Below, in pieces: positions 5,607-37,634 of a stretch of DNA of 64,000 nt. Under the pieces are notes generated by a model, which worked only from the letters and a program-made list of their open reading frames with translations, made no database searches and was not told where the DNA came from. How positions within the stretch are numbered: position 1 is the stretch's first letter; each line of letters begins with the position of its first letter. Origin of the DNA: Megaleporinus macrocephalus (taxonomy: Eukaryota; Chordata; Actinopteri; Characiformes; Anostomidae); NCBI GenBank assembly GCA_021613375.1, contig CM038726.1, positions 5,276,377-5,340,376 of the forward strand, written 5' to 3'. The position numbers and the translations under genes are program-made.

Positions 5607-6962
5607 ATGGACAGTCAAAATATCCAGAGTGGTCCACGCACCCCCCGAGAGAAGGTCAAGAAATTCTTCGGAGGAGTGCGTATAAAGATTCGGACAAAAC
5701 TGCAGAAACCCAAAGTCAACCAGCCTCAAGAACAGCAGAGAGGAGGAACCACAGACCGACCCCACATGGAGGAGCGGAAGGGAAGGATCTCTACTCAGGG
5801 AAGCTCCACCATCAACATCATGGAGAGCTCCGAGAGAGAAGTGGGGAAGAAGAACGTGCACTTGGAGATGACTCCATCGGTCAGGGCTGAGATCAGAAAG
5901 AGGTTTTACCAGCGCAAGAGGGCCAAGAAGTTCCTCAGCTACGTGGAAGAGCTTCGGGCCCAGAAAAAAGAAAGTGAGCCTCAGAAACAGGAGCCCACCA
6001 ACACCCCCAAAAGCTGCCACAAGAAAGCCAAAAAGAAGGTGCGCTTTCAGTCTCCTCCAACAGTCATCGCAGAGGAGAAGGAGAACCTGGAGTTCCAGAG
6101 TGCTCCTTATTATCAGACTGAGAGAGCCAAGACCTTCTTTAAGGATGTGGAACTGGCTCGGGCCAAATTTGCCCAGGAAGCTCTCCACAAGCTTGAAGAG
6201 CAGCAGGGGAGAGACAGCATGGTGAAAATCGAGCAGCCAGAAAGCACCACCGTCTCCGTTGACGACAGCATGTGGGTGCGAGTGAAGAGTCGGATGTCCA
6301 GATTCAGTGAATTTGCACATCGGATTCTTGCATATCGCTTGCTTCCTTTGCTGACTATCTTCCTCACCATGCTGAAGACTTTCTTGCTGGGGGTCCAGTC
6401 AGTGAACTCAGACAAGCCTGACCCGTACAGAGTCTATCGGGAGTTTAGCGTGATCAACTGGATCATCGTCACTGTCTTCCTCCTGGAGTTACTCCTAAAA
6501 ATGATGGAGGACTTCAGACAGTTTTGGAGAAGCAAATGGAACATGGTCAATTTCTGCCTGACTCTCCTAGTCCTCCTCCGGGAGATCATTATAATGTTAT
6601 CCAGAGCACCTCCAGATGTTCTGGCCAGCTCAAAGTTACTTAAGGCCCTACGAGTCGTCCGTTCCCTGAAGATCGCGTTCAATGTTATACAATTATTGAA
6701 AGTGGCCAGTGCAGGCAGCCAAACGGAGAAGAAGGGAGAGGCTCAAGCCTCTTCCTCCTCGACCTCCCAGGAACAAACAGATAAAGACTGGGAGACGAAG
6801 GTGCTTGTGAGCGAGGGGCAGGAGGAGGGGGAGGAGGTGGTCTTGCCCAGAGAGGAACTGTTGGCGTACTTTGAGAAGATAGAGCAGCTACAGCAGATTC
6901 TGGAGGAGAGGAAGCAACTGCATAAACTGCTTGTTGCACAATCTGATCTTCACAACAGCTAG
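5607..6962 (+). CDS. Pore-less voltage-sensor protein, CatSper2-like, copy A
   Basis: An intronless 451-codon gene. Residues 1-230 are basic and charged with no membrane segment. Four hydrophobic helices follow: S1 about 245-264, S2 282-299, S3 313-331, S4 343-366. S2 has the F-x-x-E-x-x-x-K charge-transfer motif (F291, E294, K298). S4 has K343, K346, R349, R352 and K355, one every third residue. No S5, pore loop or S6 follows; instead there is a Ser/Glu linker and a leucine-rich coiled coil at 411-446. The S2-S3 loop (FW-x-SKWN) and S4 (VVRSLK) resemble CatSper2 from memory. Hv1 has the same VSD-plus-coil plan but not this sequence. In this copy the S3 aspartate of WNMVDF is Asn (N315). The ATG has G at -3 and +4. 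The domain call is firm; ancestry and function are inferred. Confidence 0.85.
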   Translation: MDSQNIQSGPRTPREKVKKFFGGVRIKIRTKLQKPKVNQPQEQQRGGTTDRPHMEERKGRISTQGSSTINIMESSEREVGKKNVHLEMTPSVRAEIRKRFYQRKRAKKFLSYVEELRAQKKESEPQKQEPTNTPKSCHKKAKKKVRFQSPPTVIAEEKENLEFQSAPYYQTERAKTFFKDVELARAKFAQEALHKLEEQQGRDSMVKIEQPESTTVSVDDSMWVRVKSRMSRFSEFAHRILAYRLLPLLTIFLTMLKTFLLGVQSVNSDKPDPYRVYREFSVINWIIVTVFLLELLLKMMEDFRQFWRSKWNMVNFCLTLLVLLREIIIMLSRAPPDVLASSKLLKALRVVRSLKIAFNVIQLLKVASAGSQTEKKGEAQASSSSTSQEQTDKDWETKVLVSEGQEEGEEVVLPREELLAYFEKIEQLQQILEERKQLHKLLVAQSDLHNS

Positions 6963-7083
6963 TACTTCTACTAAAACCTTCATGGTGAAGAAGTTTGCTG
7001 TTTCCTCCTGAAGAAGCTGAAAGCTCCTAGATCATGTACCATGATGCTCCCGTTCCACTCAACAGAAATCTGAAGTTCACAAA

Positions 7084-7089
7084 AATAAA
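7084..7089 (+). terminator. AATAAA polyadenylation signal, copy A
   Basis: It lies 122 bases past the stop codon, at the same place as 24,148-24,153 (copy B) and 37,756-37,761 (copy C). The short 3' UTR before it is nearly identical in the three copies and the CA microsatellite starts about 50 bases later. Confidence 0.65.
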
Positions 7090-7140
7090 TGTTCCCAGAA
7101 AAATCCAGTTTACTTCTCGTTCTTTTAGGGTTTTTTAGGT

Positions 7141-7184
<44 letters not shown>

Positions 7185-7325
7185 CACACACACACACACA
7201 TACACACACACACAATATATACACACACACATATGATATATACACATGTACACACACACACACAATATACACACACACAATATACACACGCACAATATAC
7301 ACACACACACACAATACACACACAC

Positions 7326-7389
<64 letters not shown>

Positions 7390-7765
7390 TAATATATACA
7401 CACATACAATATACACACACATAATATACACACACATATAATATACACACACACACATATATAAACAATATACACACACACACATAATATACACACACAT
7501 ATATATAAACACAATATACACACTAACAGACACACAACATACACTCACACACACAATATACACACACACATAATACACACACACACACACACACATATAT
7601 AAACACAATATACACACACACACATATAATATACACATGTACACACACACATACACACACAATATAAACACAATATATATACACATGTACACACACACAT
7701 ATATATAAACACAAAATACACAAACACATAATATATATACACATGTACACACAAACACACACAGA
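7141..7765. repeat. (CA)n/(TA)n compound microsatellite
   Basis: About 600 bases of CA repeats with a perfect TA block (about 7329-7380) and many acaca/tatata interruptions. It joins the voltage-sensor gene's 3' UTR to the intron before the plus-strand PRY-SPRY exon. Long Cys-Val and His-Thr frames on both strands here are repeat artefacts. Confidence 0.95.
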
Positions 7766-7931
7766 GAGACAGATATTGTGTGTGTGTGTGTAAATGTGTG
7801 TGTTGGTGGTGAAAGTGATGCAGTGTGTAAAATATTTAGTGTAGAGATGATTAAGAATTAAAAACACTGACACTGTATTTTCTTCATATAAGTATCTAAA
7901 ACTCTACACCACTCTTTTTTTTTTCTTTTAG

Positions 7932-8302
7932 ATTTCTGTCCACTGACTCTGGATCTCAACACAGCACATCATCTCCTCCGTCTGTCTGAGAAGAACACAG
8001 TGGTGACATGGAGAGGTATAGACCAGCGTTACTCTGATCATCCAGAGAGATTTAACTGCTGGTATCAGGTTTTGAGTAAGGAGAGTGTGAGTGGACGCTG
8101 TTACTGGGAGGTTGAGAGGAGCAGTGAGGGAGGAACTGTGTTCATATCAGTCTCATATAAAGGGATCAGCAGGAAAGTAGGAGGTGATGAATGTTGGTTT
8201 GGATACAACAGTCATTCCTGGCGTCTGGAATGTTCTCCCTCTCTCTGTTTCCTACACAACAACATTCAGACTGAGATCTCAGGACCTTCATCCTCCAGAA
8301 TA
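7932..8302 (+). pseudogene. PRY-SPRY (B30.2) exon, first part, split by a transposon (unit A)
   Basis: After a polypyrimidine tract and ttttag acceptor the frame reads FCPLTLDLNTAHHLLRLSE, the PRY start, then SGRCYWEVE and the SPRY core to SGPSSSRI. At 8302 a 5.4-kb insertion begins and the exon resumes at 13,706. The insertion brings in a stop at 8333-8335. The exon is on the strand opposite to the finTRIM remnant at 3689-4782, and no RING or coiled-coil exon precedes it on this strand; the voltage-sensor gene does. It is the inverted partner of the finTRIM locus. Confidence 0.85.
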
Positions 8303-9441
8303 CACAGAAAAAAAAGGTCTGTTGAATTGACATGAAAAAAATATGTACATCGGTTGCACATATTAAAGTTATGTTTACTCAAAATGATAAATTCATATTC
8401 TACATACCAAATATTTTTTTGTTAAACCAACATGACATTTTTACATTAATTTAAAGCATTTATTTAATGTAAAGCATATTCCTTTATAATATGTTGAATG
8501 AACATGACATTTTTACATTACTTCAAAGCATTTGTTTAATGTAAAGTATATTCACATAGTGTTAAACTAACATGACTATTATATGAAAGTATAGTGTTAA
8601 AATGACCCAACCTCAAGTTAATCTGGCACTTTTATACAATTTTTACTTTTGACATTTTCAAATAATCTGTGTGCTGATTTTTGTTATTTAAGTCATTTGT
8701 ATTTTATATATCCCTTATCTTAATCCTGTTAAATATTTTATCTACGACATTAGAAGGCAGATGTGACAATAAACAAACACTTTTTCCACACATCACAAAA
8801 CATCTGTATTTGGCTTTTCCTATATTAAACAAACCTTTACTGAAAAAAAGAAATCAGCAAATAACCCGTGTAAGTGCATAAAACATCACATTATTTTTGT
8901 ATATCATTAAAGTGCATAGTATACATCCTTAACTGCTGGAATGTCTGGACCACAGTATGTCCTTGTGACATGACAAAAATCTGTAAAGAGCATGGTTAAA
9001 TCAAGAACTATGCACCGCAAACTGTGGTTACTTATCACACCACTGGATGGTGCCTTTTATAAATGGCTCTTACAAAGCAGTGGGTAAAAACGTTACCAAA
9101 CAAAGCAGTGAAACCTGCCACATTAACACTAGAACAAAACCAGGACAGCTATAACCTGAAAAGAACATTGTACACTGAAGTTTTCCTAGCTAGATGCACG
9201 TTGGAAAATTTAAATAATAAATGCCTTGTAAGTATGGGCTCTGAAGCAATTACAATGGTTTGCTTCCCATTGTTACAGTATTCACAATAAAGAAAGTACA
9301 AATAAATTCACCCTTAAACACTGCAATGGAGAAATGGGTGCAAGGCTTACACGTGTCCACAAAATCAAAACAAACAGACAAAAAAAATGGAAGAGTTGGA
9401 AGGGGTAGTGCCTTAGTGATTCCTTCCAAAAGAACAGTTCA

Positions 9442-11957
9442 CTAATAAAGTCTGTTTTTAAGGACTTGGGCTGTCTTGGAGAGTGTGCTGCCTTCCAGCT
9501 CCATGACAACCTTCTGAAGCACTTTAAAAGTGTACTTCAGTTCAGGAGGGTAGTTTAGGTTCAAAACATACATTAGGCCAAACAACATGGCAGCAGCTAA
9601 TGCAACATTATCCAGCTCCTCCAACACCACCTGACCCTCGAGGACAATCCCAATGTTGTCTGGTTCATCAACGCTTTGTTTGAAAATGTATATTCCAACT
9701 GTGGTCTCCTCAATGGATGTCTGAATAAGGGCTTCATCTGCTGCCTACAGAATGCACATTCAGAAAACAGAACAAAATAAGTCAGAATATTGTACTAAAT
9801 GTCTTCATTTAGCAATTTCAGCAGATACAGAAATGTGAAGCTGCAGAATGAAAGGACAGGTTCTGAGGATAGTATTTCAAAGAAAGAGACAGTTCATAGG
9901 TCAAGATTAAGCCAACAAGTGCCATGTGAGAGCAGGTCAACATGCTACACCATATTGCTAGGATTGTAATGTTTTCCGTAGGTTTCTAGATGGTTTAGTT
10001 GCTGAATAATAAAAAAAAATGCATTTTCACATAAATTACCAGATCAGTCCTGATCAATTTGTAAAAATCACAAGTTATATCACTTCACCGTACACATTTG
10101 TAAGAAGAAAGGTAATAAAAATCCACTAATTATTGAAGTATGCACTATATCCTGAAGCAAACCAACACAATTTCATGGGCGACCACACAGAGCCACAGAC
10201 ACACACAACTGACCTTCCCATAAAAATCATCTTCTTATAGTCAGGGTGTAGCCATTAACCAAGTATTTTATCTGTAATATTATCGGTCCAGTTTTTATCA
10301 ATACTCTGAAAAGAGAAATTCTCAGCTTAATCCCTTGTCGAGAGGGAATGCCAATCAATGCCAAATAAAGAGTTATGGTTCAAATGCCACCCCTAGAAAC
10401 AAACATTACACCATGTCAAAATGTTAATCGCTGATATGGACTGCCATCACTAAAAGTAAGTAGAAATTAGTTATTCACACACTGATCCATTTTGAGACAA
10501 CCATGTTTATATTAAAATCACTACCCTATTAATATCTGACTCGTTGGCTGACTGTTACATGTAATTTCAGTTAGTAGATGTTTTAAAGTGTACAAAACAA
10601 GAAAGAGAAGCTGGACAAACACATACTCACCACATACTCTCTTAAAAGGTTTTTTGGGTCTTCACTGAGGTACACACAGAGTGCCACATTCTCGCTCCAA
10701 ATCCACATCATCCTATACAAAAGGGATCAGTGGAGCAAGCAAATTTTTAATCAAATGTTATATGAACAAAGCAATATTTTTTCCAGAAAGTATACTTATA
10801 TGGGCCATGGGTGCCAAGATACTCTCGAGGCGCTTGCCCATTTGTCCTCCCCTTTTTTTAAACAGATTGATCTGTTTCTCAGAGTGCAGATCTAACTGAG
10901 AAAGGAATCTGGACTGCAGAGGCATAGTGGTGATGCGCTTAAATTCAGCATTTATCTGAAAACAACAGTGATTATAAACATAAACATTCTGTATAACAGC
11001 AATCTGGAAAGACATTTAGCAAAGGTTTAACACCAGCCTCCTTAACATTATACATAAAATATAATTTATACTCTGGGGCTTTGCAGTTGCAACTTGCTGC
11101 TTTTCGATCAGACACTGAGTACATTTCCATGCATTCAATAATCTGATAACTGCAGAAAAACAGATTTTGTCAGTAATGCGTTCACCACATTTACATGCAC
11201 TTGAATAATCCAGGAATCGGATTTCTGCACTGCAACCAGCCAATAAACTCACCTAAATGTAACCTAGAAAAACATCAAACTTGATTTTTTCATTTACTTT
11301 ACATGAAAATATGAACAAGATGATGAAGAATATTTAAATGCTTAATTTCTTCAAGCATATATTGTTTCGGCAGAAGTCCAAAAGGTGTTACTTGTGCTTA
11401 TTTCTGGTACCAAGGTCTGTTTTTGCACATGTGCAGACTAGGAAATCTGAAAGAAACCAGAGTAACCCACATGCACTGAGAAATCAGTTTTCTAAGCAAA
11501 AGTTTTCTTGGACTGAATCGAATCTTGGAAATCAGGGTTGATTACATGACCCCTATAATAATCAGAATAATCTTGTCAAAACTCTGATGATTCGATAATT
11601 GAGTGCACATAAACGCACTGAATCAAAATCTTGCGTCATTAACAACATTACCAGTCGATTACCACCTTCCTGTGATAATTTTGTACTGTTTGTACTGTGG
11701 CAAAAATTACTTTAAAAATAAATGTATCAAATTAAACTTAGACCATGACTAGAGATAGTTTGTTTTTATGTTTGATTTTTCTGATACTACTAAGCAAGCT
11801 CCACTATTAGGATTTATATACATTTGGTTTAAATTTGTTAATAACATGTGTGTGTGGGAAAGTTCATAAATTACATACCTCGCTTACTTCAAAGAGTGCT
11901 GGCCATCGTGTCTGAAAGTCTTGTATCATTGGTGTGTCACGAACCAGTTCATGTCTC
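9442..11957 (-). pseudogene. Decayed multi-exon fish gene, 'SAMD3-like' uncharacterised family
   Basis: Four exon blocks with plausible GT-AG borders read in order on the minus strand. 11,957-11,879 encodes RRHELVRDTPMIQDF..RWPALF. 10,955 to about 10,800 encodes INAEFKRITTMPLQSRFLSQL and GGQMGKRLESILAPMA. 10,712-10,631 encodes a DVDLEREC...LCVYLSEDPKNLLREYV block. 9,744-9,442 encodes ADEALIQTSIEETTVGIY through LNLNYPPELKYTF to the stop. I recall this as the C-terminal part of a large fish family annotated 'sterile alpha motif domain-containing protein 3-like'. The end of the second block and the third are frameshifted, and no N-terminal exons were found. It is probably dead and carried by the surrounding transposon. 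Confidence 0.65.
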
Positions 11958-13705
11958 CTGTATGCAAACGTTCATTCATAGTTTGTGGTACTGTTTCTTT
12001 GTTCAGTTATATACCAACAAATGATAGAAACACAAACAACAAAAACTGAACATTAGAGCTTTAAAGAAAGTAGGAACACTATGACAGTGTCATTTAAGCG
12101 ATTACTGAGATCCATTATTTTAGGACGAATCTGTTCGTAGTTCTGTTAATAATTCCGGTCAGAATCACCTCCTACAATTCGACAAATTCCGAGCTCTCCA
12201 GTCATAACTGTCCTGTTCAAAGGGACAAATCAGTAATGTAATAAAAGCGGTTCAAAGTCGGCTTCCTATTCGCTAGCCTTTTATTCAAGTTTTACCAGAT
12301 TAGAACTGCCGCACCATTCGAGGTGGAATGGTAAATGCTGGGGAATGAGAAACTGACTTTAGCTTCGACTGCACCTCTCTATTTTTTGTGACTGGACGAT
12401 AAAGCTAACAGCTACGTGGAGCCGTTGACCCAATTCCTCAATCATGAAGTTTATGACAATACTACTGAAATCTACCCCACTGTTTGGTGAAGGAGAAGGA
12501 AAATGAACTTCAAAATACCTCTCAGAAGGGAGCACGTTTTCTGTCTTGGAATGATAAACGAAGCAACTTCATTGTGTGAATGCTGTGTGTACACTATTTA
12601 GCCGCAGAACGTGCTGTTATCGCTTGGATCGAGGCGCCGCCTGTCGCATTACACTCTCGCAATGACGTTTCAATCCGGGCACGAATCGGCCAGCTAAATC
12701 AGCACAGACTATATTACCGGGCCACCTTCGACAAAACAAGCTCGAATAAACCTTAGACGAGTTTTCCTTCAAGTTGTTGCTACAGATAGGGTAGTCAGTA
12801 AAACCGCAATATAAAATATCCCCTTTTCCATTTCATTTTTTATTTAATTATTTATTTTTGTATCCGTTTTATTGGTAAACAGAATCACTTTGCATTATTT
12901 ATTTTATGACGGTAGTGGCTTGGGACGCGCTGTCTTCACTGTTTGGAGAGGTCATGATCTAGCTAGCAAAGTTTGGTAATTTCCAAACTCCACATAAGTA
13001 AAACACAGAGTGGCCGCCGAGTGAAGAGACTTAATTTTCTTCACGAACTTATAGCGCCCAACCCTAGCCACATATTTCAACAATGCAAAAGTGAAGTCAG
13101 GATATTTTTAACTTTAACTTTAGCTCAAGACTTGTTAGCTCGTTTGATACCAGGTTTAAACCCACTACTTTTTAAAGAGAGTGGACTTGTGATGTATGTT
13201 CTATAACTTTTCAAACTGCAAAACATGTTCCATGCACATAGTATGTTAAAATAGAATAAATAAGATATTTAAGGACTGTATACATTAGCATTACTAGCAC
13301 AGCTCTCGTTAACACGATCATTAAAATTTACTTTAAAATCCAAATTAAAAAAAATGAATCCACAACTAGGTAAAACAGTACATGTAAACAACCATCAACT
13401 CTGAAATTGTACAAGTTTTAATTACCTTCGCGGTAATTAAACGCGGGAAAAGATGGCATACCTCAACACTTTTCTCTCCTGGAGACTGCCCCTAGCGGTG
13501 GAATTTACCATTTCTGGAAAATAAAAACATAACTTTTTTCATTCTGCTTAACATGACTGAGACTTACAGAATCTACATCTCTCAAAATTAAAACGATTTT
13601 ACAAGATTGAAACATGTTCAGAACAGAAATATAAATCAATTATGTAGTTCATATAAACCACATATTTACTGATTTAACAACCCTGCTTCTTCCTTTTTTT
13701 CAGTG
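11958..13705. other. Right part of the insertion, no gene seen
   Basis: AT-rich with a short CpG-richer patch near 12,600-12,690, which could be the old promoter of the minus-strand gene. A 9-bp perfect inverted repeat with a 5-base loop (TTAATTACC ... GGTAATTAA) lies at 13,418-13,440. No coding similarity was recognised. Confidence 0.45.
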
Positions 13706-13869
13706 TAGGAGTGTATGTGGATCATAGTGCAGGAACTCTGTCCTTCTACAGCGTCTCTGACACAATGACCCTCCTACACACAGTCCACACCACATTCACT
13801 CAGCCGCTCTACGCTGGGTTCAGTGTTTATGGTTCTGGATCATCTGTGAGATTATGTGATAAAGAATGA
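13706..13869 (+). pseudogene. PRY-SPRY exon, second part, after the transposon (unit A)
   Basis: The frame resumes GVYVDHSAGTLSFYSVSDTM and ends SSVRLCDKE-stop. Joined to 7932-8302 it would be one intact exon, so the transposon is the main lesion in this copy. Relative to the finTRIM exon in unit D the stop has moved one codon downstream (GAATGA instead of TAA). Confidence 0.85.
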
Positions 13870-13957
13870 TTTATATATTGAATATGATGATTATCTTATA
13901 GACACATTCAGATTATTACTGACACTGTTTACATAGTGAACCAGGTTAGTTTTTTTA

Positions 13958-14396
13958 TACAGGGTGAGTCAGGATACTCTTTTATTTCAGAAATGAAAGG
14001 GGAAATGATGTATCTGAATACCCCAGCAAGTATTGGGTAAGAGGACCTATCTTATAGGCTATGAATCAAATATGGCCGCCATCTTGAAAGCCGCCATATT
14101 GTAAGTTTTTGATCAAAGAAGACCAGAATTGTCTCAGAAATTGTTTGACAGAAAGTTGCCACATCAACCACATTGAACAACATGTTTAGTGTGCTGTCCC
14201 TGGTGACAAACACAGATCTGAAGGCACAGTTCAACACGAGGGACAGCACACTGAACATGTTGATCGTTGTGGTTGATCTTACATAGCCTAAAAGATAGAC
14301 CCCCTCACCTATTACTTGTTGGGGTATTTGAATATGTCATTTTCCCTTTCATTTCTGAAATAAAAGGGTGTACTGGAACTTTTAACTCACCCTGTA
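13958..14396. mobile_element. Palindromic MITE, TACAGGGTGAG ends (unit A)
   Basis: Both ends read TACAGGGTGAGT inward and are followed by matching blocks containing CTTTTATTTCAGAAATGAAAGG, so the whole element can fold on itself. The centre holds a second imperfect palindrome (GTGCTGTCCCTGGTG ... GAGGGACAGCACAC). TA at the outer edge fits a Tc1/mariner-type target. The same element sits at 25,425-25,862 and 46,939-47,366, so it predates the array duplication. Confidence 0.75.
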
Positions 14397-14576
14397 GATT
14401 AATAAAATCTTTAGTAAATTATAAAATCATGGATAAATAAACTTCTGTACACTACCATAACACTACTATTCAAAAGTGTGTATAAAACAAACTACTTAAA
14501 CACTTTTCAGAATCTTAACTACATCTAAATTTCATGTCTCAGTGCAAAAAAATAAATAAATAAATAATAGAGTTTA

Positions 14577-15152: not shown

Positions 15153-15156
15153 ATAA

Positions 15157-16835: not shown

Positions 16836-16896
16836 AATAAGGAGACGCGCGAGGCGTGTTTAAATGACAGCAGGCGCGCGGAACGTTTAAATCAAG

Positions 16897-16904: not shown

Positions 16905-16964
16905 CCGAATACTGTAACGGACATTCTGATAAAGTAAACGGAGCTAATCTGACGGGACGCTCGC

Positions 16965-22514: not shown

Positions 22515-22565
22515 GGGGCGGAACCTATATGCCATTATGACATCATCACCAGAAGGCATAAAAGA
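22515..22565 (+). promoter_or_regulatory. Core promoter of voltage-sensor gene copy B
   Basis: GC box at 22,515-22,522, TGACATCA at 22,538-22,545 and CATAAAAG at 22,557-22,564, unchanged from copy A in sequence and spacing. Confidence 0.6.
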
Positions 22566-22706
22566 GCCCGCGCAGCCCGAGTGGAGGTCATTCCGCGCGA
22601 GTACTGTTCCAGACAGCACGTTACGGAGACTCTCACGAAGACCTTGAAGACAAAAAGAACTTCAAAGAAGAACCATTGCAGAAAAAGAACCATCATCTAA
22701 TTAGAT

Positions 22707-24026
22707 ATGGACAACCAAAATAACCAGAGTGGTCCACGCACCCCCCGAGAGAAGGTCAAGAAATTCTTCGGAGGAGTGCGTAAAAAGATTCGGACAAAAC
22801 TGCAGAAACCCAAAGTCAACCAGCCTCAAGAACAGCAGAGAGGAGGAACTACAGACCGACCCCACATGGAGGAGCAGAAGGGAAGGATCTCTACTCAGGG
22901 AAGCTCCACCATCAACATCATGGAGAGCTCCGAGAGAGAAGTGGGGAAGAAGAACGTGCACTTGGAGATGACTCCATCGGTCAGGGCTGAGATCAGAAAG
23001 AGGTTTTACCAGCGCAAGAGGGCCAAGAAGTTCCTCAGCTACGTGGAAGAGCTTCGGGCCCAGAAAAAAGAAAGTGAGCCTCAGAAACAGGAGCCCACCA
23101 AAACCCCCAAAAGCTGCCACAAGAAAGCCAAAAAGAAGGTGCGCTTTCAGTCTCCTCCAGCAGTCATCGTGGAGGAGAAGGAGAACCTGGAGTTCCAGAG
23201 TGCTCCTTATTATCAGACTGAGAGAGCGAAGACCTTCTTTAAGGATGTGGAACTGGCTCGGGCCAAATTTGCCCAGGAAGCTCTCCACAAGCTTGAAGAG
23301 CAGCAGGGGAGAGACAGCATGGTGAAAATCGAGCAGCCAGAAAGCACCACCGTCTCCGTTGACGACAGCATGTGGGTGCGAGTGAAGAGTCGGATGTCCA
23401 GATTCAGTGAATTTGCACATCGGATTCTTGCATATCGCTTGCTTCCTTTGCTGACTATCTTCCTCACCATGCTGAAGACTTTCTTGCTGGGGGTCCAGTC
23501 AGTGAACTCAGACAAGCCTGACCCGTACAGAGTCTATCGGGAGTTTAGCATGATCAACTGGATCATCGTCATTGTCTTCCTCCTGGAGTTACTCCTAAAA
23601 ATGATGGAGGACTTCAGACAGTTTTGGAGAAGCAAATGGAACATGGTCGATTTCTGCCTGACTCTCCTAGTCTTCCTCCGGGAGATCATTATAATGTTAT
23701 CCAGAGCACCTCCAGATGTTCAGGCCAGCTCAAAGTTACTCAAGGCCCTACAAGTCGTCCGTTCCCTGAAGATCACGTTCAATATCATACAATTATTGAA
23801 AGTGGCCAGTGCAGGCAGCCAAACGACTTCCCAGGAACAAACAGATGTAGACTGGGAGACGAAGGTGCTTGCGAACGAGGGGCAGGAGGAGGGGGAGGAG
23901 GTGGTCTTGCCCAAAGAGGAACTGTTGGCGTACTTTGAGAAGATAGAGCAGCTACAGCAGATTCTGGAGGAGAGGAAGCAACTGCATAACCTGCTTGTTG
24001 CACAATCTGATCTTCACAACAGCTAG
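22707..24026 (+). CDS. Pore-less voltage-sensor protein, CatSper2-like, copy B
   Basis: 439 codons, intronless, same plan as copy A: basic N-terminus, S1-S4, linker, coiled coil. A 36-base in-frame deletion removes 12 residues of the Glu/Ser linker (374-385 of copy A). The S3 aspartate (WNMVDF) is present, but the central S4 arginine is glutamine (KALQVVRSLK), so this copy has one gating charge fewer. Other private changes are V282M and T289I in S2, L323F in S3 and R415K in the tail (copy A numbering). Promoter and AATAAA are intact. Expression is likely, given the intact frame and promoter; channel-like gating without a pore is open. Confidence 0.85.
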   Translation: MDNQNNQSGPRTPREKVKKFFGGVRKKIRTKLQKPKVNQPQEQQRGGTTDRPHMEEQKGRISTQGSSTINIMESSEREVGKKNVHLEMTPSVRAEIRKRFYQRKRAKKFLSYVEELRAQKKESEPQKQEPTKTPKSCHKKAKKKVRFQSPPAVIVEEKENLEFQSAPYYQTERAKTFFKDVELARAKFAQEALHKLEEQQGRDSMVKIEQPESTTVSVDDSMWVRVKSRMSRFSEFAHRILAYRLLPLLTIFLTMLKTFLLGVQSVNSDKPDPYRVYREFSMINWIIVIVFLLELLLKMMEDFRQFWRSKWNMVDFCLTLLVFLREIIIMLSRAPPDVQASSKLLKALQVVRSLKITFNIIQLLKVASAGSQTTSQEQTDVDWETKVLANEGQEEGEEVVLPKEELLAYFEKIEQLQQILEERKQLHNLLVAQSDLHNS

Positions 24027-24206
24027 TACTTCTACTAAAACCTTCATGGTGAAGAAGTTTGCTGTTTCCTCCTGAAGAAGCTGAAAGCTCCTAGATCATG
24101 TACCAAGATGCTCCCGTTCCACTCAACAGAAATCTGAAGTTCACGAAAATAAATGTTCCCAGAAAAAAATCCAATTTACTTCTCGTTCTTTTAGGTTTTT
24201 TTAGGT

Positions 24207-28729: not shown

Positions 28730-29072
28730 GTGAGTCAACAGTCAAGTTTTCTTTTCCCTGTGTTCTGTTGTTGGAGTCATCCAGTTGATATGGTCATGTG
28801 TAAATATACATTAGGCACTGAGATCAACTGAAAATAAAGGTTCAAAAGCTGAAGGAAGACATCAAGGTTTAGGATGAAGGTAAAGGAGGAGCTAAGAGAG
28901 GAAAGGTCTTTTAGGTTGAGACAGCCGGTTTTATTCTCAGGTCAAAAAAAAAACTGGCTAAGAAGCTCACAAGAGCACTAATAAGCTCTTATTTTCTTTC
29001 AAATCAAATATTTTCATCATCCCACATATTATTCGGTATGATCGTAGACGTACATGTGAGTATGCACGTATT

Positions 29073-29397
29073 TAGTCAAGTGTCAAGTGGGTTTTATTGT
29101 CATTTCAACTACATACAGAGTACACAGTGAAACGAAACAACGTTCCTCCAGGACCATGGTGCAACATAGACAGTGCATACAAGACACAAGTGCAACACGA
29201 ACAAACAAGTGCGGACAGACAACACAACACAACACAGTACAGACAACACAACACAGTACAGACAGAGAGTAATAAATAATTGCTGGTTGTGTGCAAATTG
29301 TGCAATGTGTAATAAATAGAGTCCAGTGAGGTAGTAAAGTTATCAGTGCAATGCTTTGTGCAAAAATGCTTCCCCTTTTTTTATATCTGGGGTAAAT

Positions 29398-29440
<43 letters not shown>

Positions 29441-32400
29441 GAGTGAGTACATGTACCAGAAAGATATCAGTTCAGACGTTGAGTTGTGTTGAGAAGTCTT
29501 GGGGGAAGAAGCTGTTGCAGAGTCTGGTCGTGCTGGACCGGATGCTGCGGTACCTTCTTCCTGATGGCAGGAGGGAGAACAGTCTGTGTGAAGGGTGGGT
29601 GGGGTCATCCACAATGCTGGTTTCTTTGCGGATGCAGCGGGTGGTGTAAATGTCCAAGACGGAGGGGAGAGAGACTCCGATGATCCTCTCAGCTGTCCTC
29701 ACAATGCGTTGGAGGGACTTGCAGTCAGAGGCTGTGCAGGTCCCAAACCAGGCAGTGATGCAGCTGCTTAGGATGCTCTCTATGGTTCCCCTATAGAAGA
29801 GGGTGAGGATGGGTGGAGGGAGACGGGCCTTTCTCAGCTTCCGGAGGAAGTAGAGACGCTGCTGGGCTTTCTTGGCCTGGTGTTCAGGGACCAGGTGAGG
29901 TTCTCCACTAGGTGGACACCAAGGAACTTGGTGCTCTTAACGATCTCCACTGAGGAGCCGTTGATGTTAAGCGGAGAGTGGTCCGGTCTTGATTTCCTGA
30001 AGTCAACAACCATTTCCTTGGTCTTCTCTACATTCCAGTGAAGGTTGTTGACTGTACACCAGTCTGTCAGCTGCTGTACCTCCTCCCTGTATGCTGACTC
30101 GCCGCCTTTGCTGATGAGACCCAGCACAGTTGTATCATCGGCGAACTTTATGATGCTGTTAGAACTGTGTTTCGCAACACAGTCATGAGTCAGCAGGGTG
30201 AACAACAGAGGACTCAGTACACTGCCCTGGGGTGCCCCAGTGTTCATGGTGATGGTGCTGGAGCTGCTGTTCCCGAACCGGACTAACTGGGGCCTCCCTG
30301 TCAGGAAGTCCAGGATCCAGTTGCATAGGGGGGTGTTGAGGCCCAGCAGGCTTAACTTCCTGGTAAGATTCTGTGGGATGATGGTGTTGAATGCTGAACT
30401 GAAGTCTATGAACAGCATTCTGACGTAGGTGTCCTTCTTCTCCAGGTGGGTAAGGGAGAGATGAAGGGTGGTGGTGATGGCATCATCCGTGGAGCGGTTG
30501 GGACGATATGCAAATTGCAGGGGGTCCAATGAAGAGGGCAGTTGGGTCTTGATGTTCCTCATGACTAGCCTCTCGAAGCACTTCATGATGATGGGCGTGA
30601 GAGCTACGGGACGGTAGTCATTGGGGCAGGACACCGTGGACTTCTTCGGCACGGGGACAATGGTGTTTGTCTTGAGGCACGTTGGGACAGTGGAGCTGCG
30701 CAGGGAGATGTTGAAGATGTCCGTGAGAACATCTGTCAACTGGTCTGCACACTCTCTGAGCACTCTGCCAGGGATGTTGTCTGGTCCTGCAGCTTTCCGT
30801 GGGTTGACTCTGCGCAGAGTTTTCCTCACGTCCACTGCAGTCAGGCACAGCGCCTGCTCGTCTGGCTTGGGTGTGATTTTGCTCACCAACGTGTTGTTCT
30901 GTGCCTCAAACCGTGCATAAAAGTCGTTTAGGGCATCGGGGAGGAAGGCATCACTGTCACAGGACGGTGGCATTGTCCTGTAGTGAGTGATTTCCTGGAT
31001 GCCCTGCCACATGCGCCGCGTGTCACCCGTGTCCTTGAAGTGGTTGTGGATCCTCTGGGCGTGTGCGCGCTTTGCCTCTCGGATGGCTCGTGACGATTTG
31101 GCTCTTGCTTTCCTTAGGGCCGCCTTGTCACCCACTCTGAAGGCCGAGTCGCGGGTCCTCAGTAGCGCACGCACCTCAGGAGTCATCCACGGCTTCTGGT
31201 TTGGGCGTATGGTGATGGTCTTGGAGACAGTGACATCATCAATACACTTGCTGATGTAGCCAGTGACTGATGCTGTGTACTCCTCCAAGTTAACAGAGTC
31301 GCCTTCAGTCGCAGCCTCCCTGAACATGTCCATGCAGTTCACTCAAAACAGTCCTGAAGGGCAGAGATGCTCCTGCCGGCCAGGTTTTCACCTGCTTCTG
31401 AACTGGTCTGGAGCGTCTGATGAGGGGTGTGTAAGCTGGAGTCAGATACACAGACATGTGGTCCGAGAACGCGAGGTGGGGGCGGGGCTCCGCCCGGTAC
31501 GCGCTGGGTATGTTTGTGTAAACAAGGTCCAACGCGTTCGCTCCTCTCGTGGCAAAGTCCACATGCTGATGGAATTTAGGGAGGACTGACTGGAGATTAG
31601 CGTGGTTAAAATCTCCGGCGACAATGAACAGTGCGTCTGGGTGTCTGGTCTGCAGATCACTGATGCCCCCGTGCAGCTCCCACAGTGCCTCCTTAGCATT
31701 AGCATTAGCGCTAGCGCTAGGCGGTATGTACACGGCGGCTATCAGCACGGCGGAGAATTCCCGTACTAAATAAAAAGGTCTGCACTGGACTATGATGAAC
31801 TCCACCAGCGGAGAGCAGTGCTTGGCGACAGTCACAGCGTTGTTGCACCATTCTGTGTTGATGTAAACACACACGCCTCCACCGCGGGTCTTCCCGGACA
31901 GAGCCGCGCTCCTATCCGCTCTGAACGAGGCTAGCCCGTCTAGCTGAATGGCGCCGTCTGGAATACTGTCGCTGAGCCACGATTCCACAAAGACTAGAGC
32001 ACAGCAGTCTCTGAACTCTCGCTGGGTCGCTCGCTGGAGTCGAATGCAGTCCAGTTTATTATCGAGGGAGCAGACGTTTGCGAGGAATAGCGATGGTATA
32101 GCCGGGCGGCTAGGGCTAGCCTTTAGCCTCGCGCGAACCCCGGCTCTCTTACCGCGCTTCCGCTTTCGCTTGCACCGCTTGCGATGACACTTCCGCTGGG
32201 CTCCGCCATCAGGAAACGCCGCGGACTGCAGGCCTGGGTCTTGTAGCAAGCTGAGCTCTTGTATCAGCTGTAGAACTTCATCCGGAAGATTGTTTTTAGG
32301 CTGATTTCTCCACTGAAGCAGGGTCTGGCGGTGGTAGGATATGTGCACTGGTGTTCCGATGCACATATTTGCAGAGATGGACGTGAGTATCCACAAACAA

Positions 32401-32463
32401 TAACACAAAAAGCACCAATTCTCGGACCAAGAGTGGCCGCTGCGTGTTAACGTGCCGCCGACC
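29073..32463 (-). mobile_element. LINE retrotransposon, L2/Rex-like (CR1 superclade), near full length
   Basis: Read on the minus strand. An endonuclease frame (32,408-31,305) contains [15 protein letters not shown] and a late SDH, as in AP-type endonucleases. A reverse transcriptase frame (31,342-29,834) contains [41 protein letters not shown] and FADDTT. A frameshift near 31,330 separates the two, and another after TWSLNT moves the C-terminal part to 29,702-29,472. The 3' end is the usual tail with TTGAC-type repeats near 29,080. Unit B supplies the empty site near 18,830. The element is inactive. Confidence 0.85.
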
Positions 32464-33221
32464 GAAAGTGGGCTTTTATACTGTGGACTAATTATGTGTC
32501 TTATATAGTTCTACAAATATCAAAACAAGAAGAAACATGAACATGCATTTTACATAAAACATTAACAAACATTTTATATAAAACAGCTTTATTAACAATA
32601 TTGAGACACTAATTAGCTTCAGAGTGCAATGAACATTTCCACCACTAGAGGGAGATGATAAACCACTAATACATATGAGTCGTCCTGTAAAAAGTCATGT
32701 ACTTAAAAAAGAGATGATCCAAATTTTCTCAGGTGTGTTAGTGAAACGAATACACTAAATGTACATTTACTTAACAAAAATATAACAAACACTACACAAT
32801 CATTCTGGTAATAAACTCTATAAATTATTATAATTTTAAAGGCTTAAAGTATTTGTAGAATTAAAAATTTACTCAGATCATTTAGATCACTTGTTTTTAC
32901 AGTGTGGTGTCACCTGATCCAGTTCAGTAGAAAAATGTGGGGTAAAGATTATGAGCCGTGTGCAGTTTGTAGGTTGTTGGGAATAAAAAGCTCTTTGTAC
33001 AGTGAAGATCGTTTCATTAGACTGTAGTGTGTCGAGTGAAAAGAAACGTGTTTACTACTGTTAGCAATGAGGTCACCTGCTGTTCTTTCACACTGCTGCT
33101 GTGTTTAATCATATATTTCAGTAAGACCACCCTGATATTCCATATTTCTACAATTAACATCCACAAGTGATTTTAAATGTGTGATGTTCAGTTATCATAC
33201 GAACTTCTCTCTTTATTTCAG

Positions 33222-33506
33222 ACAGGTGGAGTTTTTCACACACACACACATACAAACACTCTCACTGTACAACACGTTCATCACCAGCTTCTGAACAATG
33301 TACAGAACCAGTTTGGACCACCTACTCATAGAAGGGTCTTCCTCTATTTCTTCATCTTACATATTAGAACAACAGTGAAGACATCAGAAGTATGAAATAT
33401 CCCATGTTGATTTATGCAGAAACTAAACAGCGTTAAACTAATCAGACTGTTTTCTCTCCAGCAGCTTCATGAGGATCCACCTAATATACTTTTCCAACAG
33501 GACTAA
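33222..33506 (+). other. Second unknown exon pair, unit C
   Basis: Segments 33,222-33,389 and 33,462-33,506 with the same splice sites and TAA as in units A and B. Confidence 0.35.
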
Positions 33507-33790
33507 AAAAAATAAACTCTAAAGCTGAGACCGTTAATATATATGTTATAGTTTAAATGATTAAATACTAAAAAAATTGATAAAATTTAAGATCATGAAA
33601 AATACCTACACAGTTAAGTGTTTAAAGGCTAAGCACCATGTCAAACACATAGATACAGCAGAGTTTGAGATCCTAGCTTGTGATTAATAAAAGTCAGAAA
33701 ATATTTTATTGTTTACAAAGTCAAGAAATACGACTGAAAAGACTGTTTAGCTCTGCCTGCGTACTTAAGATGTACTTACGGTAATGCAGA

Positions 33791-33943
33791 ATGACAGAAA
33801 GGTGTTGTTGTAATCGGATGTACAGTGGACCCCCGTACACAAACGACCCAAAGACCAAAAATATGTGGACTAAATTTGTCAGCTTTAAACGGACACACTG
33901 GAAAGGAGTGTCCTCTCCGAGGCGAGAGCCTCCGTGTACGTGA
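33791..33943 (+). pseudogene. THAP-domain remnant (unit C)
   Basis: Same start and same internal deletion as the unit B copy; one further change (GAGTG for GAGCG) gives V for A. Confidence 0.6.
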
Positions 33944-34252
33944 AGGTAGCACACGGTAGCGTTCAGGAATTTTCGTAGCAAGCTCGGGTTTTTCCATCAA
34001 TGTTTATAATCACGTTTATATGTTATTATGTAAAATCACCAGGACTGTCTATAAGTGGTGCTTAGCCTTTAAACATTTGTAGTGTTGAACTGAACTGAAC
34101 ACCTTTTTCATTTGTACGGAACTTCCTCCAGGATTAGAAAAGATTTTTATGATCAATACATTATTATTAAATCACATGTCAGTAATATATTCAGTGTCAG
34201 TAATATTCTGACTGTATCTATAAGATAATCATCATATTCAATATATAAATCA

Positions 34253-34550
34253 TTATTTATCACATAATCTCACAGATGATCTTAAACCAACCCAGAACCC
34301 AGCGTAGAGCGGCTGAGTGAATGTGGTGTGGACTGTGTGTAGGAGGGTCATTGTATCAGAGACGCTGTAGAAGGACAGAGTTCCTGCACTGTGATCTACA
34401 TACACTCCTATTCTGGAGGATGAAGGTCCTGAGATCTCAGTCTGAATGTTGTTGTGTCGGAAACAGAGAGAGGGAGAACATTCCAGACTCCAGGACTGAC
34501 TGTTGTATCCAAACCCACATTCATCACCTCCTCCTTTCCTGCTGATCCCT

Positions 34551-34607
<57 letters not shown>

Positions 34608-35368
34608 TGCTTATTACTCATACACTGCAGAAAATCTTCTCTGGTTGTTGGTTCTGAGGACACAACAATCCAGAACCATCAATAGAATAGAATAGAGAAA
34701 ATAGAATAGAGTAAATAGAGTAAAAAGACTAGAGTGAATAGAACAGAGTGTATAGAGTGAACATTTCTGCAGATGGACAGATAAAAGTGATGATGTTAAA
34801 GTGTATTATTTCAGTAGAAACTATAATATTTTTAGTTATTATGAACTTTGGGGGGAAGATCAGTCACTGTTAGCGGGAAGATTCTCTCTTTACCGTATAC
34901 CAACGTAACAAACAAACACTCAAGTGTTCAGATTATTCAAAACAAACTACTTAAAATAGTTATTAAATGTTATTGTTAGTTTATTTCTGTAAACAATAAC
35001 AACTTCATATTTAAACAAACCAACAAAACAAAACATGTATTTTTTTTCTAATCAGTTTATTAATGAGTTTCACAGAAGGAGGCCGGACACGTCAGACAGG
35101 ACTTGACGGCTTAGAGTTTTCTCCCAGTGCAGAAATCACACTCCACATCTCCAGGTCCAGCGTAACAGGGAGCAGGAGAAGCAGCTTGGAGTTCTGTCTT
35201 CTTCAGTTTCTCCACCACTTCAGCCAGCATGTTGTTTCTACGTAGAACAGATCTTGGAGTGAAAGTCTTTCTGCACTGGGGGCAGCTGTAGACCCCCCTC
35301 TGATCTTCCTGATCCCAGCAGCCGTTAATACACATCATATAGAAGCTGTGTCCACAAGGAATAGTCAT
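34253..35368 (-). pseudogene. finTRIM pseudogene (unit C), with an in-frame linker-repeat-SPRY fusion
   Basis: The RING/B-box piece is at 35,368-35,065 with the shared stop. Below it, 34,663-34,253 is one uninterrupted 136-codon frame: SSEPTTREDFLQCMSN, a His-Thr run read from the CA microsatellite, then GISRKGGGDECGFGYNSQ through the SPRY end SSVRLCDK. Here the repeat length happens to keep linker and SPRY in phase, unlike unit A. Without a RING, B-box or known promoter it is probably not expressed as a TRIM. The RING piece keeps CPQCR, unlike A and B (CPQSR). Confidence 0.8.
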
Positions 35369-35371
35369 TTT

Positions 35372-35670
35372 AGTGTTGCTATCGGGTTGTTAGGTGGTTA
35401 TTAGGCAGTTGCTAGGCATATACAGGGGTGTCCCAGCTAGTTGCTATAGTGTTGCTATGTGGTTGTTAGGGTGTTTCTATGGTGTTGCTAGCCAATTACT
35501 AGGGTATCCCAAATGGTTGCTAGGGTGTTGCTAGGCAGTTGCTATAGTGTCGCAGCTGGTTGCTAGGTGGTTGCTAGCGTATTCCAGCTGTGTTGGTATT
35601 GTATCCCAATTGGTTGCTAAGGTGTTTCTAGGCAGTTGCCATGGTATCCAATCTGGTTGCTAGCATACAA
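35372..35670. repeat. GTTGCTA-type minisatellite (unit C)
   Basis: As in unit B, shortened by one block near its start. Confidence 0.8.
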
Positions 35671-36085
35671 CTAAAAGGTTTCCCTGTGTAAAGTGGTTCC
35701 TGTACGAGTTGAAAATCCTGTGTTAGGCATGGCTGAAAATGAATGGTACTCTATGGGAGGATCGAGGGATGAATAGACGACTAATAGAGGAGTGCAGGTG
35801 GGTATGTCTGTGGATTAGAACTTGCTGACCTGCCCTGAGTGAGTACATGCAGTTTGGAGGCTGTTCATTAAACCATATTTGGGTATCAAAACTGAATAGG
35901 ACTCTATGGGAGAAAAAGAGGGATATAAAAAAAGATAAACAGACGAGTGCGGGTTGAACCAACACTGCAGGCGTGGTCGGGGGTCTGTCCTCAGTCAGTG
36001 TGTGTGAATGTCATGATGCCTCTGCCTCCTCTCTCTAAGACAGTGTAGTCTAGTAAAGTGCAGAGAGAGAGGGTGAGACACGGAA

Positions 36086-36136
36086 GGGGGCGGAACCTAT
36101 ATGCCATTATGACATCATCACCAGAAGGCATAAAAG
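36086..36136 (+). promoter_or_regulatory. Core promoter of voltage-sensor gene copy C
   Basis: GC box 36,086-36,093, TGACATCA 36,110-36,117 and CATAAAAG 36,129-36,136 with the same spacing as in A and B. Confidence 0.6.
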
Positions 36137-36278
36137 AGCCCGCGCAGCCCGAGTGGAGGTCATTCCGCGGGAGTACTGTTCCAGACAGCACGTTACGGAG
36201 ACTCTCACGAAGACCTTGAAGACAAAAAGAACTTCAAAGAAGAACCACTGCAGAAAAAGAACCATCATCTAATTAGAT

Positions 36279-37634
36279 ATGGACAATCAAAATAACCAGA
36301 GTGGTCCACGCACCCCCCGAGAGAAGGTCAAGAAATTCTTCGGAGGAGTGCGTAAAAAGATTCGGACAAAACTGCAGAAACCCAAAGTCAACCAGCCTCA
36401 AGAACAGCAGAGAGGAGGAACTACAGACCGACCCCACATGGAGGAGCAGAAGGAAAGGATCTCTACTCAGGGAAGCTCCACCATCAACATCATGGAGAGC
36501 TCCGAGAGAGAAGTGGGGAAGAAGAACGTGCACTTGGAGATGACTCCATCGGTCAGGGCTGAGATCAGAAAGAGGTTTTACCAGCGCAAGAGGGCCAAGA
36601 AGTTCCTCAGCTACGTGGAAGAGCTTCGGGCCCAGAAAAAAAAAAGTGAGCCTCAGAAACCGGAGCCCACCAAAACCCCCAAAAGCTGCCACAAGAAAGC
36701 CAAAAAGAAGGTGCGCTTTCAGTCTCCTCCAGCAGTCATTGTGGAGGAGAAGGAGAACCTGGAGTTCCAGAGTGCTCCTTATTATCAGACTGAGAGAGCC
36801 AAGACCTTCTTTAAGGATGTGGAACTGGCTCGGGCCAAATTTGCCCAGGAAGCTCTCCACAAGCTTGAAGAGCAGCAGGGGAGAGACAGCATGGTGAAAA
36901 TCGAGCAGCCAGAAAGCACCACCGTCTCCGTTGACGACAGCATGTGGGTGCGAGTGAAGAGTCGGATGTCCAGATTCAGTGAATTTGCACATCGGATTCT
37001 TGCATATCGCTTGCTTCCTTTGCTGACTATCTTCCTCACCATGCTGAAGACTTTCTTGCTGGGGGTCCAGTCAGTGAACTCAGACAAGCCTGACCCGTAC
37101 AGAGTCAATCGGGAGTTTAGCGTGATCAACTGGATCATCGTCACTGTCTTCCTCCTGGAGTTACTCCTAAAAATGATGGAGGACTTCAGACAGTTTTGGA
37201 GAAGCAAATGGAACATGGTCGATTTCTGCCTGACTCTCCTAGTCCTCCTCCGGGAGATCATTATAATGTTATCCAGAGCACCTCCAGATGTTCAGGCCAG
37301 CTCAAAGTTACTCAAGGCCCTACGAGTCGTCCGTTCCCTGAAGATCACGTTCAATATCATACAGTTATTGAAAGTGGCCAGTGCAGGCAGCCAAACGGAG
37401 AAGAAGGGAGAGGCTCAAGCCTCTTCCTCCTCGACCTCCCAGGAACAAACAGATAAAGACTGGGAGACGAAGGTGCTTGCGAACGAGGGGCAGGAGGAGG
37501 GGGAGGAGGTGGTCTTGCCCAGAGAGGAGCTGTTGGCGTACTTTGAGAAGATAGAGCAGCTACAGCAGATTCTGGAGGAGAGGAAGCAACTGCATAACCT
37601 GCTTGTTGCACAATCTGATCTTCACAACAGCTAG
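36279..37634 (+). CDS. Pore-less voltage-sensor protein, CatSper2-like, copy C
   Basis: 451 codons, intronless. It is the only copy with the whole canonical sensor: S2 F-x-x-E-x-x-x-K, the S3 aspartate in WNMVDF, and S4 with five basic residues spaced by three (K, K, R, R, K). It differs from copy A at 18 residues by eye, and from B at about 10 plus the 12-residue linker deletion. Residues 156-276 are identical to A. Private changes include G59E, E122K, Q128P and Y277N. A BEL/Pao element sits 344 bases past the stop, but AATAAA at 37,756-37,761 comes first, so the transcript should end normally. Confidence 0.85.
   Translation: MDNQNNQSGPRTPREKVKKFFGGVRKKIRTKLQKPKVNQPQEQQRGGTTDRPHMEEQKERISTQGSSTINIMESSEREVGKKNVHLEMTPSVRAEIRKRFYQRKRAKKFLSYVEELRAQKKKSEPQKPEPTKTPKSCHKKAKKKVRFQSPPAVIVEEKENLEFQSAPYYQTERAKTFFKDVELARAKFAQEALHKLEEQQGRDSMVKIEQPESTTVSVDDSMWVRVKSRMSRFSEFAHRILAYRLLPLLTIFLTMLKTFLLGVQSVNSDKPDPYRVNREFSVINWIIVTVFLLELLLKMMEDFRQFWRSKWNMVDFCLTLLVLLREIIIMLSRAPPDVQASSKLLKALRVVRSLKITFNIIQLLKVASAGSQTEKKGEAQASSSSTSQEQTDKDWETKVLANEGQEEGEEVVLPREELLAYFEKIEQLQQILEERKQLHNLLVAQSDLHNS

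Follow-up and report, generated by a model that had tools for sequence, protein, structure and literature searches.

A tandem family of pore-less, CatSper2-like voltage-sensor genes in the fish Megaleporinus macrocephalus: probable origin and possible roles

Few voltage-sensor-only proteins exist, and the presence of several genes encoding apparent sensors without a pore in a single fish genome raises the questions of how the pore was lost and whether the remaining sensor may serve a purpose. The window considered here, i.e. the whole stretch of DNA analysed, covers 64,000 nucleotides of M. macrocephalus (assembly GCA_021613375.1, contig CM038726.1, positions 5,276,377 to 5,340,376). Three intact single-exon frames, already noticed in an initial annotation, were confirmed on its forward strand, to which all coordinates below refer: copy 1 (5607..6962, 451 aa), copy 2 (22707..24026, 439 aa, with an in-frame deletion of 36 nt) and copy 3 (36279..37634, 451 aa). 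All three have a G at positions -3 and +4 of the ATG, in agreement with the Kozak rule, and an AATAAA polyadenylation signal (7084..7089, 24148..24153 and 37756..37761, respectively).

Architecture and relationship to CatSper2

Each frame encodes an S1-S4 voltage sensor fused straight to a CatSper2 C-terminal tail, without S5-P-S6. Profile searches with the window frames gave a match to Pfam Ion_trans limited to positions 6-108 of 241, which is the sensor half; this was the sole Pfam family above cut-off, and no PTEN-like phosphatase domain was found. Among PDB sequences, the best match to copy 3 was mouse CatSper2 (7eeb_B, E=8.6e-14), a pore-forming subunit and not a member of a family already known to be pore-less. 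The alignment comprised two collinear blocks, residues 228-363 of copy 3 corresponding to mouse residues 90-225 and residues 390-443 to 522-579, the pore between them being skipped, and the tail shares with CatSper2 a motif in the region of DWETxV and LEERKxL. Over 123 positions, the sensors of the seven intact copies known in this genome displayed 30-33% identity with mouse CatSper2. An additional homologous-protein search returned no relative.

Based on the alignments with CatSper2 and among copies, the voltage-sensor domain was placed at 6282..6701 in copy 1 (residues 226-365, transferred from the copy 3 versus mouse alignment), 23382..23801 in copy 2 and 36954..37373 in copy 3 (residues 226-365). 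The CatSper2-type tail lies at 6762..6959 (copy 1, residues 386-451), 23826..24023 and 37434..37631. By comparison with full-length relatives on another contig (C26, see below), the missing pore, about residues 364-514 of the relatives, would fall in copy 3 at the junction 37374..37433. When the genome was searched with a full-length relative that has the pore, and 73 of 75 candidates were scored, its pore residues 365-514 gave no match on the window's contig at E <= 0.001, so no downstream exon restores S5-P-S6. A pore motif like FTxDHW was likewise absent from all seven intact pore-less copies. The proposals of the initial annotation that these genes are pore-less, descend from CatSper2 and were truncated to a sensor plus tail are thus upheld.

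Other structural claims held in part. Of the four membrane helices announced, S1-S3 were recovered from hydropathy alone and the charged S4 was placed by homology instead. For the tail, initially described as a coiled coil, a helix with homology to the CatSper2 tail is predicted. Coiling and dimerization are putative, with hydrophobic residues at 6 of 11 a/d positions in the best heptad register and weak AlphaFold models (mean pLDDT 44 and 52).

Genomic copies and origin

Searches of the same genome, whose counts are lower bounds, revealed at least nine pore-less copies on the window's contig, seven of them intact. Seven of the eight copies clustered at 5.28-5.56 Mb are intact; the eighth carries two frameshifts and the ninth copy is a pseudogene. 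A second, diverged pore-less copy (L016) has its deletion at the same place as the main copies. Three intact full-length CatSper2 genes were found on C26, with the pore contained in one long exon and bearing the motif FTYDHW (FTLDHW in mouse); the one C26 protein tested matched mouse CatSper2 with E=9.4e-78 (265 bits). Among the open frames around the C26 cluster, a stretch presumably related to KLF10/11 was the only one that could be placed. As regards the auxiliary subunits that, like CatSper1, 3 and 4, form a complex with CatSper2, a search for the CATSPERB_C family gave no match in this genome, yet none either in its 14 controls.

The pore-less copies and the C26 genes also have upstream sequences in common. 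A core promoter, composed of a CRE-like TGACATCA followed by a TATA-like CATAAAAG, precedes copy 1 (5438..5464), copy 2 (22538..22564), copy 3 (36110..36136) and the three C26 genes. The surrounding block, which starts at a GC box and ends shortly after the TATA-like site (alignment columns 80-200), agreed with C26 at 86 of 96 aligned bases, and further upstream DNA was shared as well. Taken singly, TGACRTCA occurred in the window no more often than by chance (8 versus 6.43 expected); the pair TGACATCA-to-ATAAAAG was found three times versus 0.00 expected, all three being copies of one site.

Since promoter and upstream DNA are common to both groups, DNA duplication with internal deletion is a simpler explanation than the retroposition envisaged initially. 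Direct retroposition of a CatSper2 cDNA, with the pore lost through exon skipping, would account for the single-exon frame and for the fact that the window copies do not have the 3' intron of 84 nt which one C26 gene is predicted to contain. However, the full-length C26 genes display the same long-exon layout, no target-site repeats were detected between the 121-260 nt past the stop and the 1.5 kb upstream of the ATG, and the C26 pore lies within a single long open frame, so that there is no exon to skip. Such a retroposition appears highly improbable. We are highly confident that the family arose from a CatSper2 duplicate through DNA-level copying, in-frame internal deletion of the pore and tandem amplification. 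In the ancestral CatSper2 gene, the coding sequence would by then have been confined almost entirely to a single long exon, and a duplicate of this gene, including its compact promoter, would have reached the chromosome of the window. An in-frame internal deletion would then have removed the S4-S5 linker, S5, the pore loop and S6, and the pore-less gene would thereafter have been amplified in tandem.

Sequence evolution after pore loss

No purifying selection on amino acids could be detected since pore loss, omega being around 1 or above. Stem and tips together gave 1.3 (2dlnL versus 1 = 1.36), with 0.97 for the main tips and 2.28 for the main stem (2dlnL 4.13, marginal). In the voltage-sensor domain omega reached 2.43 (2dlnL 6.69), and the likelihood test gave a 2dlnL of 6.24 in a two-class model and of 11.06 over the 99 codons away from gaps; a parametric bootstrap of the sensor test gave 0/117. 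Simple counts did not follow: the plain stem counts (24 nonsynonymous to 5 synonymous) were indistinguishable from neutral expectation (P 0.10-0.27), as were stem and copies together (10 of 50 changes synonymous, P 0.08-0.32). With a significant likelihood test and non-significant counts, these sequence comparisons are suggestive of adaptive change of the sensor. Two of the per-domain omegas, that of the C26 tips for the sensor and that of L016 for the tail, reached their upper limit of 20, as happens when changes are few. Lineages may also have exchanged sequence by gene conversion, because stem changes are very unevenly spread, with 29 in the 123 codons of the sensor, 12 in the 150 of the N-terminal arm and 1 in the 66 of the tail.

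On the deep branch the tail evolved under constraint (omega 0.10; NG86 0.33 between the main copy and C26), whereas it displayed none after pore loss (omega 1.29, 2dlnL 0.4). It is this constrained part that was retained, which favours the view of origin and partner role developed below.

Copy 3 has all the expected sensor residues, namely the S2 F-x-x-E (in F-L-L-E-L-L-L-K), the S3 aspartate D315 and a basic S4 residue at every third position (K343, K346, R349, R352 and K355). The S4 pattern K-x-x-K-x-x-R-x-x-R-x-x-K, initially ascribed to all three window copies, is present in two and interrupted in copy 2 (R349Q); copy 1 has lost the S3 aspartate (D315N). In the family alignment, R349Q affects three, K343T one and D315N one of the seven intact copies. 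One S4 basic residue is therefore missing from four copies, while three keep all five; as one of these three is without the S3 aspartate, D315 and the five basic residues occur together in two copies.

These losses are among the observations favouring a second explanation, according to which segmental duplication recently amplified a drifting, functionless pore-less CatSper2 copy, the intact frames being residual. The omega close to 1 among copies, the frameshifted copy and the pseudogene point the same way. So does the nearly equal divergence of copies 1 and 2 in coding (2.1%) and upstream DNA (2.3%, with 17 differences in 743 positions, the upstream DNA also having a 97-nt indel); the idea that the coding sequence is more conserved than its flank was rejected on the same upstream differences. 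Among the window copies, the 25 nonsynonymous and 10 synonymous changes are likewise what neutrality predicts (7.5-9.6 synonymous), and 35 such changes would include no nonsense with a probability of about 0.2. Against this explanation, seven of the eight clustered copies are intact, the promoter block is kept, and no nonsense change was observed on the pore-less tree versus 6.06 expected (P 0.0023), a count restricted to the seven intact copies and leaving out the frameshifted eighth and the pseudogene. Sensor changes would moreover exceed plain decay if omega truly is above 1, which simple counts do not bear out. That the copies are such relics is quite possible, though short of probable.

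Possible roles and comparison with known systems

The explanation we prefer starts from anatomy, the common promoter, copy number and fast sensor evolution, to which expression, binding and an effect would be added. Transcription would start at the promoter inherited from CatSper2 and take place probably in the male germ line; the product would be a membrane protein in which a basic N-terminal arm precedes the sensor with its four helices and the tail helix of CatSper2 type. Without pore helices, this protein cannot line a channel. Its tail would bind whatever a CatSper2 tail binds, be it the full-length protein encoded in this genome or other channel partners in the flagellum, and voltage-driven S4 movement, or mere occupancy, would tune that complex. 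A role as pore-less partner or decoy is put forward tentatively; for this role and the proposed origin taken together, we would give a probability of roughly 0.4. The lack of one S4 basic residue in four of the seven intact copies lowers our confidence in a partner or decoy and raises it in both drift and conduction by the sensor itself.

For the latter, the isolated sensor would be a putative conductor of protons or cations in sperm through a gating-pore (omega) current, with an effect like that of Hv1 or HCNL1. The selectivity aspartate of Hv1 sits in S1. No Asp was found in S1 of the copies (LLPLLTIFLTMLKTFLLGV, copy alignment), so the residue for Hv1-type proton selectivity is apparently missing, which weakens the proton pathway suggested by the initial annotation. 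According to one article, the proton selectivity of Hv1 depends on an Asp located centrally in the pathway (PMC11339754). Precedents for conducting sensors are given in a review (PMC10651576): the sensors of Shaker and of Ciona CatSper3 conduct when isolated, the lack of an S4 charge is the usual setting of gating-pore currents, and HCNL1 of zebrafish sperm passes protons through its sensor, a Met replacing an S4 Arg and the pore being non-functional. The four copies with an incomplete S4 agree with such a behavior, but the other three keep all five basic residues, which would normally block omega current, and a conducting role seems unlikely.

The 'new sensor family' announced by the initial annotation exists anatomically; as a functional family it is putative, given an omega around 1 or above since pore loss and the loss of sensor charges in several copies. 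It is possible, though short of probable, that this is a working voltage-sensor-only family, independent of Hv1, VSP and TMEM266, which arose by pore deletion in a CatSper2 duplicate. Its sensor would then have changed adaptively and diversified in tandem into S4- and S3-charge variants, and the family would work in fish sperm alongside full-length CatSper2, either as a tunable partner or as a gating-pore pathway. If the genes are expressed, the ancestor type and its pore-less product coexist in one genome, and the role of a voltage sensor after evolutionary pore loss becomes testable. Among the literature matches listed, no title or abstract start mentioned a pore-less CatSper2.

Comparison with known systems reveals partial likenesses. 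TPTE/VSP and TMEM266 also have a sensor unattached to a pore; in contrast to TPTE/VSP, no phosphatase domain was found in the copies, and TPTE2 matched copy 3 weakly (E=1e-5, against 8.6e-14 for CatSper2). Hv1/VSOP likewise combines a pore-less sensor with a C-terminal helix, whereas the copies belong to the CatSper2 lineage, lack the S1 Asp and carry a long basic N-terminal arm. HCNL1 is another fish channel family, whose current passes via the sensor and not the pore according to the same review (PMC10651576), but HCNL1, a member of the HCN family, still has its pore domain, albeit a non-functional one. Compared with CatSper2 (mouse 7eeb_B and the C26 genes), the copies are devoid of the S4-S5 linker, S5, pore loop, S6 and the 3' intron predicted in one of the C26 genes; they have in common with it S1-S4 and the tail motif, and with the C26 genes the promoter block.

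Frames, domains and surroundings of the window copies

Three intact frames were read from the window sequence at positions 5607-6962 (copy 1, 451 residues), 22707-24026 (copy 2, 439 residues) and 36279-37634 (copy 3, 451 residues), as the initial annotation had placed them; at the protein level, copy 3 shares 96% identity with copy 1 and 95% with copy 2. Pfam profile Ion_trans was above cut-off in all three, over profile positions 6-108 of 241 only, which is the sensor half. The top PDB sequence match of copy 3 was mouse CatSper2 (7eeb_B, E=8.6e-14), in two collinear blocks pairing residues 228-363 with CatSper2 90-225 (S1-S4) and residues 390-443 with CatSper2 522-579 (tail end). T-type calcium channels were close runners-up (1.7e-12), and among the alignments printed the tail block was present only in that of CatSper2. 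The CatSper2-like ancestry first proposed is supported; of the coiled-coil tail, a predicted helix was retained while the coiled coil was not established. No protein relatives were found in a large protein database.

A relic that we take to be TRIM-like lies at 3503-4780, with matching places 5' of copies 2 and 3, and hence upstream of each window gene. Its SPRY, middle and RING pieces stand side by side, while those of the copy at 49756-56817 are kilobases apart, and the relic therefore looks processed. Retroelement frames on the minus strand (29472-32510 and 38831-45878; read by eye as encoding reverse transcriptase, integrase and gag-like products) lie between gene copies, and one retroelement separates copy 3 from its apparent downstream flank at 46022-48531. 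A 48-nt tandem repeat at 54796-55333 is open in frame over 180 codons. Opposite the N-terminal half, the minus strand is open over 265 codons in the window copies (5601-6398, 22701-23498, 36273-37070) and the antisense strand over 185 codons in four C26 copies (e.g. 34602798-34603355), in both cases probably a by-product of codon composition.

Full-length CatSper2 genes and loss of the pore

Another contig of the genome, C26, carries at 34.57-34.63 Mb three intact full-length CatSper2 genes of 602 codons each (34602654-34604462, 34616065-34617873 and 34629677-34631485), besides at least four broken genes or pieces. The C26 protein tested matched mouse CatSper2 across sensor, pore and tail (E=9.4e-78), with 70 of 154 pore residues identical and a pore motif FTYDHW versus FTLDHW in mouse. 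A genome search with this protein, which could overlook diverged short exons, listed no further CatSper2 locus and no intron-split CatSper2; outside C26 and the window's contig, C25, it gave seven weak matches only (best E=2.5e-6). On C25 its matches were confined to residues 1-364 and 515-591, and no pore match was found there, so that the absence of a pore domain also stands. A CATSPERB genome search was silent, as were its controls.

The genome searched comprised 1.28 Gb in 100 contigs, with the window at C25:5276377-5340376, and family counts are lower bounds. At least seven intact pore-less copies, in both orientations, occupy C25 5.28-5.56 Mb, together with an eighth in which the frame shifts twice. 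The ninth copy, at 4.456 Mb, has no start codon, is missing two internal stretches and is interrupted by two stops.

Sensor, pore and tail of the C26 genes lie within one open frame, and there is therefore no exon to skip. Moreover, DNA 5' of the ATG is common to pore-less copies and C26 genes. In the shared block nearest the gene, which contains a GC box, TGACATCA and CATAAAAG, copy 3 and one C26 gene agree at 86 of 96 aligned bases; the stretches flanking this block are less alike (31/38, 29/38, 27/38). Upstream and coding DNA jointly match at about 74-75%; the further upstream match (73-76%), displaced in C26 by an additional 1.4-1.6 kb, extends to about 800 bp 5' of the ATG, its far end being a dispersed repeat. 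In L016, a second, diverged pore-less copy, the deletion is at the same place, directly downstream of S4, and the junction shows small differences peculiar to this copy. The simplest course is a DNA-level duplication, followed by the in-frame loss of about 150 codons in a single deletion and, later, by amplification in tandem. Of the earlier alternative, retroposition or truncation, truncation to sensor plus tail is retained, and the shared 5' DNA and the lack of an exon to skip argue against retroposition.

Near the end of one C26 gene (L012:4428-4511, i.e. C26:34604428-34604511), an 84-nt GTAAGT...CTCTTACAG stretch, also present in the other two intact C26 genes and missing from the window copies, is a predicted intron, possibly the last one remaining from the ancestral CatSper2. 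Its in-silico removal gives the C-terminus HNLFVQAHLNLHET, nearer to mouse ...QEFAV.

Selection and sensor charges

The three window copies differ at 35 sites, 25 nonsynonymous and 10 synonymous (neutral expectation 7.5-9.6 synonymous), and coding divergence is about that upstream (28/1320 and 17/743 for copies 1 versus 2). Codons 156-276 (e.g. 6072-6434) show one change, synonymous, in 121 codons versus 35 in 451 overall, possibly through gene conversion or constraint. A codon branch model of 355 codons put overall omega at 0.89. The deep C25-C26 branch had 0.68 (2dlnL against 1: 4.14) and the stem of the pore-less copies 2.28 (4.13); omega was 0.97 among these copies, 0.67 for L016 and 1.29 among C26 genes. 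By NG86, copy 3 versus C26 had 0.67, with 0.33 in the tail, 0.66 in the sensor and 0.82 in the N-terminal arm, and copy 3 versus L016 had 1.08 (sensor 1.37); human-mouse CatSper2 dN/dS is given as 0.32, and 0.34 for the membrane part, in a passage of PMC2572835.

After pore loss, omega was 1.3 for the whole protein (2dlnL 1.36), 0.93 for the arm (0.03), 1.29 for the tail (0.4) and 2.43 for the sensor (6.69 against 1; 0 of 117 bootstrap replicates under omega 1 as extreme). No amino-acid conservation is apparent from then on, and functionless drift is about as probable as the tail-acting role favoured below. Adaptive evolution of the sensor is suggested; simple counts on the stem (24 N : 5 S) were not significant (P 0.10-0.27). 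There is also some sign that the frame was kept open: among intact copies only, no nonsense change was seen on stem and seven tips versus 6.06 expected (P 0.0023), or 3.77 for tips alone (P 0.023).

Copy 3 retains S2 F-L-L-E-L-L-L-K, S3 Asp315 and S4 K343/K346/R349/R352/K355. The S4 basic pattern originally described holds for copies 1 and 3 and fails in copy 2 (R349Q), and copy 1 has D315N in S3. Of the seven intact copies, three have lost R349, one K343 and one D315; copy 3 and L002, another intact copy, are the only two in which D315 and the full set of five S4 basic residues are present. That the sensor itself conducts by a gating pore is a less probable but real alternative. In its favour, zebrafish-sperm HCNL1 and the isolated sensors of Shaker and Ciona CatSper3 are reported to conduct (PMC10651576; for Shaker also a passage of PMC13095418), and four of the seven copies lack one S4 basic residue. 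Against it stand the absence of an Asp from S1 and the other three copies, which retain all five. The S4 of the three intact C26 genes has His (RILHVLK) in place of the Arg of mouse CatSper2 (RVLRSLK) and the pore-less copies; Arg-to-His changes in S4 of Ci-VSP produced proton current, according to a passage of PMC10651576.

A proposed tail-acting role, and CatSper in fishes

A protein without S5-S6 is unable to line a pore. By domain, omega on the deep branch was 0.84 for sensor, 0.90 for arm and 0.10 for tail; the tail being most constrained there and retained, a pore-less partner or decoy is favoured, at a tentative probability of about 0.35, which would use its tail to act on full-length CatSper2 or on some other flagellar complex. 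Testis expression would be expected from CatSper descent and the CRE-like and TATA-like promoter, behind which we presume CREM-type control.

No pore-less CatSper2 family was found among the literature matches listed. CatSper was reported absent from teleosts in PMC2572835, a statement repeated in PMC4749565, as far as the passages concerned go. Excerpts of other sources describe CatSper as conserved in three ray-finned species, after an earlier review (PMC6660944), list catsper2 among genes of a fish gonad transcriptome (PMC10705525) and cite a 2020 Atlantic salmon paper (PMC9603624). The presence of CatSper2 in certain ray-finned fishes was therefore already known.
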